DNA of 64,000 nucleotides from the NCBI RefSeq assembly GCF_019308285.1, contig NZ_WWEM01000031.1:434001-498000 (forward strand), written 5' to 3'. Below are positions 15,902 through 18,302 of this stretch, piece by piece (positions within the stretch are counted from its first letter, which is position 1; each line of letters opens with the position of its first letter). The position numbers were made by a program, and so were the translations under genes. Under the pieces are notes generated by a model. It worked only from the letters and a program-made list of their open reading frames with translations, did not search any database and was not told where the DNA came from. Source of the DNA: Flavobacterium quisquiliarum. Its GTDB lineage: Bacteria > Bacteroidota > Bacteroidia > Flavobacteriales > Flavobacteriaceae.

Positions 15902-15925
15902 TTAATGAAACTTTCCAAACAATTT
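15902..15925. repeat. 24-bp direct repeat, copy 2 (within HMG-CoA lyase 3' end)
   Basis: The intact copy. It covers the stop codon and last seven codons of the lyase gene and matches 15523-15546 exactly. Confidence 0.9.
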
Positions 15926-16768
15926 TGAGGCTTCATTATAAGCGCTTTCAAAGCTTAAAGAGTTTAAACCAGTATGTTTTTTGTTTGCAGTAAAATAGGA
16001 AATCAGTTTTTCTGTGGGCATATTACCCGTTAACTTATCGGTTGCCATTGGACAGCCTCCAAATCCTTGGATTGCACCATCAAAACGTGTACAGCCGGCT
16101 TTTGCTGCTGCATCAATTTTTTCGAACCAAGTATCTGGTGTGGTATGCAAATGGGCTCCAAATTCAATGTTCGGGTATTTTGGAATTAAATGAGAAAACA
16201 AATAGGTAATGACTTCTGGCGTAGAAGTTCCAACAGTATCAGAAAGTGAAAGAATTTTAACGCCCATTCCTGCAAGCTTTTCTGTCCATTCCGCTACTAT
16301 TTCTACATTCCACGGATCTCCGTAAGGGTTTCCAAACCCCATGGAAAGATAAGTTACAACTTCTTTACTTTTTTTATCGGCCACTTCTAGTATTTCTTCT
16401 AATGTAACCAATGATTCTGCAATAGTTTTATGCGTGTTACGCATCTGGAAATTCTCTGAAATAGAAAATGGAAATCCTAAATATCGAATCTGTTCATATT
16501 CTGAAGCCGTTACTGCTCCCTGCGTATTGGCAATAATGGAAAGTAATTTACTAGTAGTTTGAGACAAATCCAACTGTTCTAAAACTGTTGCAGTATCCTG
16601 CATTTGCGGAATTGCTTTTGGAGAAACAAAACTCCCGAAATCAATAGTATCAAAACCCACTCTAAGCAAAGCCTGTATATAGGAAACTTTATTTTGTGTT
16701 GGAATAAAATCTCTAATGCCTTGCATGGCATCTCTGGGACATTCAATGATTTTGATTTCTTTATTCAA
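15902..16768 (-). CDS. Hydroxymethylglutaryl-CoA lyase
   Basis: HMGL-like TIM-barrel lyase that cleaves HMG-CoA to acetyl-CoA and acetoacetate in leucine breakdown. The N-terminal IIECPRDAMQG has the catalytic Arg-Asp pair. The metal-binding HLHTTPD and the loop QGFGGCPMATDKLTGN (the usual form is GLGGCPYA), with its catalytic Cys, are present. At 288 residues the length is normal. Leucine dehydrogenase in the same window fits leucine use. Its last 24 bp are duplicated beyond the adjacent small gene. Confidence 0.88.
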   Translation of the reverse strand: MNKEIKIIECPRDAMQGIRDFIPTQNKVSYIQALLRVGFDTIDFGSFVSPKAIPQMQDTATVLEQLDLSQTTSKLLSIIANTQGAVTASEYEQIRYLGFPFSISENFQMRNTHKTIAESLVTLEEILEVADKKSKEVVTYLSMGFGNPYGDPWNVEIVAEWTEKLAGMGVKILSLSDTVGTSTPEVITYLFSHLIPKYPNIEFGAHLHTTPDTWFEKIDAAAKAGCTRFDGAIQGFGGCPMATDKLTGNMPTEKLISYFTANKKHTGLNSLSFESAYNEASKLFGKFH

Positions 16769-16827: not shown

Positions 16828-16959
16828 TAGAGAATGCCAATTATTACTCAATATCGTAATATCTGAAATTATTACACTAAAGCGTAATATTTTAAAATAT
16901 TACCAAAAAACGTAATAATTAATTTTATTACTTATATTTGTAATAGAAAGTTTATTATT
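16828..16959. repeat. Array of 20-bp palindromes with an exact 28-bp period
   Basis: GTAATA-N8-TATTAC occurs at 16856-16875, 16884-16903 and 16912-16931; the middle copy is a perfect 20-bp palindrome. A fourth GTAATA starts at 16940 with a degenerate right half. A TATTAC at 16842-16847 is the right half of a decayed unit one period upstream. Left halves start at 16856, 16884, 16912 and 16940, exactly 28 bp apart. The array fills the gap between the HMG-CoA lyase and SatD-like genes and overlaps a TATATTTG promoter box (16933-16940). It looks like a multi-operator control region. Confidence 0.85.
16933..16940 (+). promoter_or_regulatory. -7 promoter box within the palindrome array
   Basis: TATATTTG, 38 bp before the SatD-like ATG and flanked by palindrome units. 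A second TATATTTG (16967-16974) lies only 3 nt before the ATG, so it is a less likely promoter. Confidence 0.5.
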
Positions 16960-16977
16960 TTTTAATTATATTTGATT

Positions 16978-17592
16978 ATGACTAGTGTAATTACAGGTGA
17001 CATAATTGGTTCAAGACAGCAGGAATCAGAACATTGGGTGGAAGATTTAAAAAAGATTCTAACTCCGTTTGGTGCTACGCCAAGTCAATGGGAAGTATAT
17101 CGTGGTGATGAATTCCAGATAGAAGTTTCTAATCCTGAAGAAGCCTTGTTGGCTGCTATTTTAATTAAGGCTCGTTTACGTGCCATAAAATCAGACGCGA
17201 GGATGAGTATTGGTTTTGGAGATAAAACACATAATGCAACAAAAATATCCGAAAGCAATGGTTCGGCTTTTATTCATTCTGGAGAACTTTTTGAAACATT
17301 AAAAAAACAGAAAGTTACTTTGGCACTGCGAACAGGAGATACTAATTTTGACGAGAAACTCAATTTAATGCTGCAATTGGCGTTAACTTTTATGGACAGC
17401 TGGCTAGTACAATCCGCAGAATTTATTGCCTTAGCAATAGAAAACCCAAAACTTTCGCAAGAAGAACTGGGGCAGAAATTAGGCATCAATCAAGCTGCCG
17501 TGAGCCGAAGACAAAAACGTGCTCAATTTGAATTGGCTATGAATTTAGATCGATATTTTAGAACTCAAATAAAACAACTCACAACCTTATGA
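16978..17592 (+). CDS. SatD-like protein with C-terminal helix-turn-helix
   Basis: A 204-residue protein of the SatD type. The N-terminal part carries, in order, ITGDIIGS (residues 5-12, Asp8), YRGDEFQ (41-47, Asp44), MSIGFGD (76-82) and GSAFIHSGELFE (95-105). This order resembles class III nucleotide cyclases (DI near the first strand, a GD hairpin, iGIhxG, GxAVNxAaRL). The C-terminal part has LSQEELGQKLGINQAAVSRR (about 159-178), a helix-turn-helix. ATG 16978 is preferred to TTG 16972. It overlaps the DUF3307 gene by 4 nt. The SatD name comes from a streptococcal acid-tolerance locus; the biochemical function is unknown. Confidence 0.75.
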   Translation: MTSVITGDIIGSRQQESEHWVEDLKKILTPFGATPSQWEVYRGDEFQIEVSNPEEALLAAILIKARLRAIKSDARMSIGFGDKTHNATKISESNGSAFIHSGELFETLKKQKVTLALRTGDTNFDEKLNLMLQLALTFMDSWLVQSAEFIALAIENPKLSQEELGQKLGINQAAVSRRQKRAQFELAMNLDRYFRTQIKQLTTL

Positions 17593-18302
17593 TTTTATTC
17601 GTAAAACTACTTTTAGCACATTTATTAGGTGATTTTATCTGGCAGCCGGGAACTTGGGTTGCGGATAAAGAAACCAAAAAACATAAAAGTATTTACTTAT
17701 ACATCCATATTCTGCTTCATGGAATTTTAGCAGCAATTCTAGCCAGCGAAATCCGTTTTATTCCCTACGCCACTTTAATTGCCCTAACGCATGGCATCAT
17801 TGATTTGATCAAACTAAATTTTCAAAAAAAGAAAAACAAACGCACTTGGTTTGTAGTGGATCAAATTGCCCATATTTTAGTTTTAATTGGCGTTGTGCTT
17901 TTATATGAAAACAAAAGTCTCCCTTATTTTTGGCAGGATAATGTGTTTTGGATTTTTGCAACTGGTATTTTACTCCTTACCAAACCAACGTCCATTTTTA
18001 TTAAAACCATAATTTCAATCTGGGCACCTGAGAGCAAAATCAATAATCAGGACAACTCATTAGTCGCTGCAGGAAATTATATCGGAATCCTGGAACGTTT
18101 ATTCGTTTTCGGATTTATCCTGACGAATCATTTCGAAGCAATCGGATTTTTATTGGCTGCCAAATCCATTTTTAGATTTGGCGATTTAAAAGAAGCCAAA
18201 GACCGAAAGTTGACCGAATATGTTTTAATCGGCACATTAATCAGTTTTGGAATTGCAATTCTCGCAGGATTATTGGTTCAAATGCTTTTACAGCTGTCCT
18301 AA
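17589..18302 (+). CDS. DUF3307 membrane protein
   Basis: A 237-residue integral membrane protein with about six hydrophobic segments. Polar residues recur four apart within the hydrophobic stretches: His11 and Asp15 (AHLLGDF), His40 and His44, His68 and Asp72 (THGIIDL), and Asp91 and His95 (DQIAH). That pattern would suit an intramembrane metal site. Its start overlaps the SatD-like stop (ATGA), so the two are coupled. I recall SatD and DUF3307 as frequent neighbours. The end overlaps the 3' end of pyrD by 15 bp on the opposite strand. Confidence 0.8.

Follow-up and report, generated by a model that had tools for sequence, protein, structure and literature searches.

A 28-bp periodic dyad array that co-varies with the SatD recognition helix: a probable operator of the satD-DUF3307 operon in Flavobacterium quisquiliarum and its relatives

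Introduction

Which protein is served by the regular array of short inverted repeats that precedes a SatD-like gene of Flavobacterium quisquiliarum, and what does the array control? The array lies on contig NZ_WWEM01000031.1, in a stretch of 64,000 nucleotides that was analysed as a whole and is referred to here as the window. A sequence-only reading of the window had described GTAATA-N8-TATTAC palindromes at a spacing of exactly 28 bp, placed directly before a gene whose product carries a helix-turn-helix (HTH), and had proposed that the SatD-like protein regulates its own gene through them. SatD is on record as a secretion and acid tolerance protein in the available text of two sources (PMC11323703, PMC10326533), the former of which links streptococcal satD to acid tolerance and cites its reported essentiality in S. 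pyogenes. In the literature searched, which covered few subscription journals, SatD is given neither an operator nor a DNA-binding role, and DUF3307 is mentioned in one paper.

The array before satD

The intergenic region between satD and a divergent HMG-CoA-lyase-like gene carries eight perfect half-sites, TATTAC and GTAATA in alternation at a 14-bp step, that span 16842-16945; a pattern scan of the sequence places their starts at 16842, 16856, 16870, 16884, 16898, 16912, 16926 and 16940. They group into four dyads of the form TATTAC-N8-GTAATA with a period of 28 bp, located from the sequence and a whole-genome pattern scan.

15902-16768, minus strand: HMG-CoA-lyase-like gene, divergent
16842..16861, no strand: candidate operator dyad 4 (distal), TATTAC-N8-GTAATA
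16870..16889, no strand: candidate operator dyad 3
16898..16917, no strand: candidate operator dyad 2
16926..16945, no strand: candidate operator dyad 1 (proximal), which contains a candidate -7 element, TATATTTG

The GTAATA motifs that the sequence-only reading had placed at 16856, 16884, 16912 and 16940 are present in the sequence, the unit at 16884 is indeed a perfect 20-bp palindrome, and the array does stand directly before the HTH gene, the ATG of which is at 16978. The unit GTAATA-N8-TATTAC is exact at 16856, 16884 and 16912, but the one at 16940 has no intact right half, and the 'decayed fifth unit' at 16842 is in fact undamaged, a TATTAC with which the first dyad opens; it is in the opposite phase, TATTAC-N8-GTAATA, that the array resolves into four whole dyads. 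The 28-bp spacing likewise holds as the period of the dyads, whereas the basic step is 14 bp in alternating orientation, of which only alternate half-sites had been caught. A period of 28 bp corresponds to approximately 2.67 helical turns (28/10.5), which would turn each dimer by about 240 degrees relative to the one before it. Elsewhere in the window, at 1748-1851, lies a microsatellite of 14.9 copies of GATTTTA with zero mismatches that looks hypervariable.

With two mismatches at most, the 20-bp pattern has 12 matches in the window against 5.2 expected, and all three exact ones fall within the array. All four exact copies of the dyad TATTAC-N8-GTAATA in the 6.17-Mb genome belong to the array (backwards control, two), and a pattern of three half-sites, again with two mismatches at most, finds the array only, as three overlapping sites per strand (backwards control, two per strand); neither the exact dyad nor the three-half-site pattern thus points to a further target in the whole 6.17 Mb. 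Single dyads are near chance in number and it is the regular array that stands out, and the weight of the argument rests on the comparison between genomes.

Arrays at orthologous satD promoters

SatD loci were collected by protein search from genus to phylum, with E-value limits that differ and samples that overlap. Genomes with SatD numbered 59/121 in the genus, 169/299 in the family, 73/246 in the order, 28/247 in the class and 64/247 in the phylum sample. The loci are the best-scoring matches of most searches, with remote SatD genes under-sampled and the weaker half of the phylum matches outside the set. The 302 loci were reduced to 258 distinct sets, and 256 promoters were scored; L028 and L033, the regions of which were too short to score, and L368, a locus without a profile match, were excluded.

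Promoters were examined with a letter-free test, a column-likelihood score for alternating inverted half-sites of any sequence, with a cut-off of 7.5. The sequence-only reading had called for a search upstream of SatD/DUF3307 pairs in other flavobacteria for the same array, and its proposal withstands this test: 236 of 256 distinct promoters score at least 7.5, with half-site letters that differ among loci, as against 48 of 1828 other 220-bp windows from 67 of the same loci. The top control score is 13.0, a value exceeded by 210 of the 256 SatD promoters. From the control rate about six chance passes are expected among the 236, and doubtful passes include L415 (a T-run), L031 (scored on DNA apart from its real array), and L295 and L362 (consensus unclear). 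In an earlier set (223 distinct promoters of 225), 209 promoters score above the 99th percentile of dinucleotide shuffles at the 14-bp step, and only 1-19 do so at any one of the remaining steps from 10 to 23 bp; an earlier and cruder letter-free test, with 26 of 156 at step 14 and nine at the next best step, is superseded by the column-likelihood score. The array extends beyond the order, with 19 of 23 scored promoters passing outside it but within the class, and six of six outside the class.

The 20 promoters below the cut-off comprise five with a displaced array, found within 400 bp (L189, L244, L247, L248, L276), eight with dyads spaced 29 bp apart (L278, L357, L358, L360, L369, L397, L404, L405), two with a single dyad (L205, L359), and five in which neither an array nor a TAT-type dyad was found (L313, L363, L364, L396, L401). 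The 15 rescued in this way were recovered under looser, after-the-fact criteria and without a shuffle control. In L031, L189, L244, L247, L248 and L276 the array begins 256-363 bp before satD, compared with the usual distance of about 130 bp, and extra DNA intervenes; these displaced arrays are natural tests of a position effect. At L380 (G772:C44, 51907-52066) six near-identical exact dyads TATCGT-N8-ACGATA, 28 bp apart and upstream of SatD, are probably a recent local expansion. The viral contigs searched yielded a single remote SatD relative, L415 (IMGVR_UViG_3300012148_000149, 29% identity), which is on a contig from a viral collection and owes its upstream score to the T-run only.

The same comparison establishes the geometry and phase of the array. 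An even number of half-sites is found in 176 of the 225 arrays, of which 166 start with TATN3 and 10 with N3ATA; the other 49 have an odd number. Within TATN3-N8-N3ATA the spacer is 8 in 579 of 660 matches, and 59 of the remainder are at 11, which we tentatively take as a three-base shift onto GTAATAATA. Since even arrays mostly start with TATN3 and the inner N8 is fixed, the unit is TATTAC-N8-GTAATA. GTAATA-N8-TATTAC as the unit is ruled out by the same two observations. The distance from dyad to dyad is 28 bp (429 cases) or 29 bp (22 cases), and among 214 promoters examined 106 have three dyads and 56 have four. To judge from the sequences of the 29-bp loci, the register between dimers appears slightly flexible and the dyad itself rigid.

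Pattern searches in other genomes lead back to the same locus. A four-half-site pattern with up to two mismatches matched nine of 397 family genomes (backwards control, none), and each of the nine matches precedes a SatD gene that has DUF3307 behind it. Exact sites of the ACG-type dyad number 22 in ten genomes, 15 of them at SatD and seven, from three genomes, elsewhere (backwards control, six); one of these seven, a site common to G416 and G214, was inspected and lies inside an ORF in G416. A wider regulon in lineages of the ACG type is conceivable.

Half-site letters and the recognition helix

In 225 of the 236 passing promoters the half-site has the form N1N2N3-ATA; the other 11, without an N3-ATA consensus, are outside the triplet counts, in which the misplaced chain of L031 is included. 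In the window the residues in question are encoded as follows.

17491..17508, plus strand: recognition-helix codons of satD, residues 172-177 (Q A A V S R), of which 173, 174 and 177 co-vary with the half-site

The commonest pairs of helix and triplet are NQAAVSRR with GTA, QQSAVSQR with CTT or CTA, SQSNISEG with CAG, KQNTVSER with ACG, NQNAVS[ST]R with GTG, TQSNISKG with GTA, NQDAVSKR with GGC and NQEAVSKR with GGA, and helix TQGNISQG goes mostly with CTA, with exceptions that include CTG, CAA and ATA. When relatives are kept in, residue 177 sorts with N1 as R with G (87 of 89), K with G (16 of 16), Q with C (39 of 49) and G with A (10 of 11), and E is split between C (25) and A (10) in 39 cases. 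Five close relatives among the 258 proteins (L190, L191, L242-L244) have R172 for Q172, and all five have GTAACA, not GTAATA.

Association scores were computed on 37 representatives whose N-domains share less than 60% identity. In this set residue 174 is tied to N2 (z 9.7), residue 177 to N3, N1 and N2 (z 8.0, 5.7 and 5.4) and residue 173 to N1 and N3 (z 6.2 and 5.3); residue 175 has z of at most 1.8, residue 176 is too invariant to judge, and z values of 3.0-3.6 are seen at a few more positions in the helix region. When all 204 columns are ranked, residues 177, 173 and 174 hold ranks 1-3 with 84 representatives (70% cut-off) and with 131 (80%); with 37 (60%) they hold ranks 1, 2 and 4, and residue 165 is third. 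Non-helix columns also have a positive mean association, which is lineage background. Residues 45 (the E or S of RGD[ES]FQ) and 165 co-vary with the half-site above most columns, a signal that may be a lineage effect or a link between palm and HTH.

Shared ancestry was addressed with a branch test on a tree of the N-terminal domain, which does not contain the helix (207 leaves, 412 branches; parsimony, all branches weighted equally). With 57 changes of the triplet and 51 changes of the helix trio, 32 branches are shared against 7.1 expected (P 2.5e-19); the best of 12 N-domain columns tried against the triplet gives P 2.9e-3. SatD would accordingly belong with autoregulated HTH proteins, having in its own promoter a site that co-varies with its recognition helix. 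Because the letters of the half-site track the recognition helix of SatD, the binder would be SatD itself, and we conclude that SatD very probably binds the array.

The SatD protein and its partner

The genes downstream of the array are annotated from Pfam and, for satD, also from a structural model.

16978..17592, plus strand: satD, 204 aa, with a predicted palm domain (cyclase/GGDEF-like, about residues 1-120) and a C-terminal HTH
17589..18302, plus strand: gene for a DUF3307 protein (PF11750, 102.6 bits), the operon partner, overlapping the satD stop

The protein is akin to the SatD family (PF16264) and the sat operon of Streptococcus mutans in that it passes the SatD cut-off, by 1.3 bits (30.3 bits against 29, E 4.2e-7). 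A genome search at E 1e-5 did not bring it up, and the protein is therefore a remote member of PF16264. Its C-terminal HTH matches HTH_24 (23.3 bits, cut-off 21.9). As a sigma-70 family factor it falls short, with Sigma70_r4 at 21.3 bits against 24.1, no other sigma region in Pfam, and NCBIfam sigma70-ECF at 20.9 against the 42.9 needed. A PDB sequence search with SatD gave weak matches only, the best being HipB (E 0.027).

An AlphaFold2 model of SatD from an 18-row alignment has a pLDDT of 93.6 (a single-sequence model, with a pLDDT of 46.9, was left out), and its predicted N-terminal domain has the beta-alpha-beta-beta-alpha-beta order of a palm fold. Foldseek gave a GGDEF domain, 6eib, as the best match to the N-domain (probability 1.00, E 4.1e-3), with none at E 1e-3, and VIA gave Z 11.4 to 2qv6 (110 residues, rmsd 3.2) and Z 10.8 to 4zvg (115 residues, rmsd 2.8), the partners at Z 10-11 being GTP cyclohydrolase III, GGDEF domains, adenylyl cyclases and the palms of Y-family polymerases. 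The available text of PMC2904730 defines the palm metal site by two acidic positions, one where strand 1 ends and one in the hairpin between strands 2 and 3; with strand ends taken from the model, SatD has D8 and D44 at these places, each in 257 of 258 proteins. The GG[DE]EF signature is absent, its place being held in nearly all proteins by RGD[ES]FQ (R42 in 246 of 258; residue 45 E in 121 and S in 118). The modelled palm domain and the conserved metal site suggest nucleotide sensing by SatD.

Where enough sequence is available, SatD is followed by a DUF3307 relative in 181 of 182 loci. By eye, the DUF3307 protein is hydrophobic and has spaced His/Asp motifs (HLLGDF, HILLHG, THGIID, DQIAH), which could form a metal site.

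Promoter elements and the direction of control

Two candidates for a -7 element were found in the window with the published -7 consensus, TANNTTTG at -12..-5 in the available text of PMC6847099 and PMC9723704.

16933..16940, plus strand: candidate -7 element TATATTTG (P1), within dyad 1, from sequence and published consensus; predicted start about 16945
16966..16973, plus strand: second candidate -7 element TATATTTG (P2), from sequence

P2 may give a leaderless transcript from the ATG or may be translation-start context instead. Across the 225 arrays, 161 have TAnnTTTG in reach and 64 do not, and in 82 of the 161 the 3'-most TAnnTTTG falls in the bin from -15 to -11 relative to the ATG. The commonest offset is that of the window, inside the last dyad (46 of 161), and the next commonest, in 27, places the element on that dyad's edge; in both arrangements a bound protein should block RNA polymerase, and repression is favoured on this account, so that autorepression of satD-DUF3307 appears likely. 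The opposite direction, in which SatD binds the array and activates its own operon, or a ligand switches it between activator and repressor, is rather improbable, with its share of the evidence coming from 25 of the 161 promoters (among them the CTAATA group) in which the nearest TAnnTTTG is 22-40 bp beyond the end of the array; an array so far upstream would suit an activator, and these promoters are the reason that activation keeps some weight.

A model for control by SatD

It is highly probable, in our view, that the array serves satD-DUF3307 as its operator, that SatD dimers bind it and repress their own operon, and that the palm domain is probably nucleotide-binding. We infer that one SatD dimer would occupy each 20-bp dyad TATTAC-N8-GTAATA, with recognition-helix residues 173, 174 and 177 reading the variable triplet (GTA in the window) and the near-invariant Gln172 reading ATA. 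Neighbouring dimers would sit next to one another at 28-bp intervals, winding around the DNA, and occupancy of the array would cover the promoter, including the -7 element in the proximal dyad, such that SatD would repress its own operon. The N-terminal palm, in which the two-aspartate metal site is kept, probably binds a nucleotide, and this would alter DNA binding. From the spacing alone we infer, as the sequence-only reading had, that binding may be cooperative, with wrapping of the DNA. The suggestion in that reading of an operator bound by the SatD-like product of the neighbouring gene is strengthened by the arrays of orthologues and by the co-variation of half-site and recognition helix.

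The role of SatD at the operator has been deduced by comparing sequences, which leaves room for another, global regulator that binds the array, with the link to SatD being merely that of a conserved promoter. This is very improbable: the half-site letters track the recognition helix of SatD more than they track the rest of the protein, and a global regulator should have further sites, whereas in this genome the exact dyad is found only at the array and the pattern matches among the 397 family genomes were all at SatD. The array is in an intergenic region that satD has in common with the divergent HMG-CoA-lyase-like gene, a relative of which lies upstream in 92 of 176 testable SatD loci, but that the array serves this gene is extremely improbable, since the array test is passed in 87 of 92 loci with the lyase gene and in 77 of 84 without it, and across genera the array goes with satD. 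Still closer to nil is the probability of a neutral tandem repeat of AT-rich DNA; TRF also calls the array as a 28-bp tandem repeat, but its units are alike in little except the half-sites, and the geometry stays constant while the letters vary with the protein.

Relation to known systems and significance

Operators built from repeated sites have been described in other families. Tandem sites are found in the IclR family, where contacts were predicted via mutual information between helix residues and site bases (PMC8222616), and in the available text of that paper IclR-family regulators resemble the SatD array in having tandem palindromic sites and protein-DNA co-variation. The IclR sites are spaced by 18-22 bp and bound by dimers on a single face of the DNA, whereas the SatD array has a period of 28 (sometimes 29) bp, a non-integral number of turns, and mostly 3-4 dyads, and SatD is of a separate protein family. 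RptR, a repressor of restriction-modification islands, is similar to SatD as a small dimeric repressor with a series of short promoter repeats, but its sites are three direct repeats with a minimal 6-bp palindromic site, and the available text of PMC12255303 does not mention a palm domain. GGDEF domains, class III cyclases, Cas10 and GTP cyclohydrolase III share with the modelled SatD the fold, an Asp at the end of strand 1 and an Asp in the strand 2-3 hairpin; unlike these palm-domain enzymes, SatD has RGD[ES]FQ for GGDEF and a C-terminal HTH, and any enzymatic activity is putative. For streptococcal satD, the available text of PMC11323703 mentions neither an operator nor DNA binding nor a palm domain, all three of which are predicted for the SatD of the window. 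Co-variation of site and helix is known elsewhere (IclR, in the available text of PMC8222616), and the architecture of the protein, the 14/28-bp array and the code are undescribed as far as was searched.

We tentatively raise the possibility that SatD is the founder of a class of one-component regulators in which a nucleotide palm, active or ligand-binding, controls a helical array of dimers at the promoter of one sole partner, DUF3307. If so, dimers would be turned by about 240 degrees, with three of them covering all faces of the DNA, and DUF3307 would be the presumed membrane protein under their control; and because operator and helix are adjacent in hundreds of genomes, a natural recognition code could be read directly. 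The combination of fixed geometry and drifting letters offers natural data on a large scale about shifts of HTH specificity under an operator that keeps its register. For much of the Bacteroidota, a product annotated as of unknown function can now be treated as a regulator open to testing: its target is defined, and a map of its contacts and its sensor domain are predicted. The near-obligate pair of SatD and DUF3307 thereby gains a first handle.
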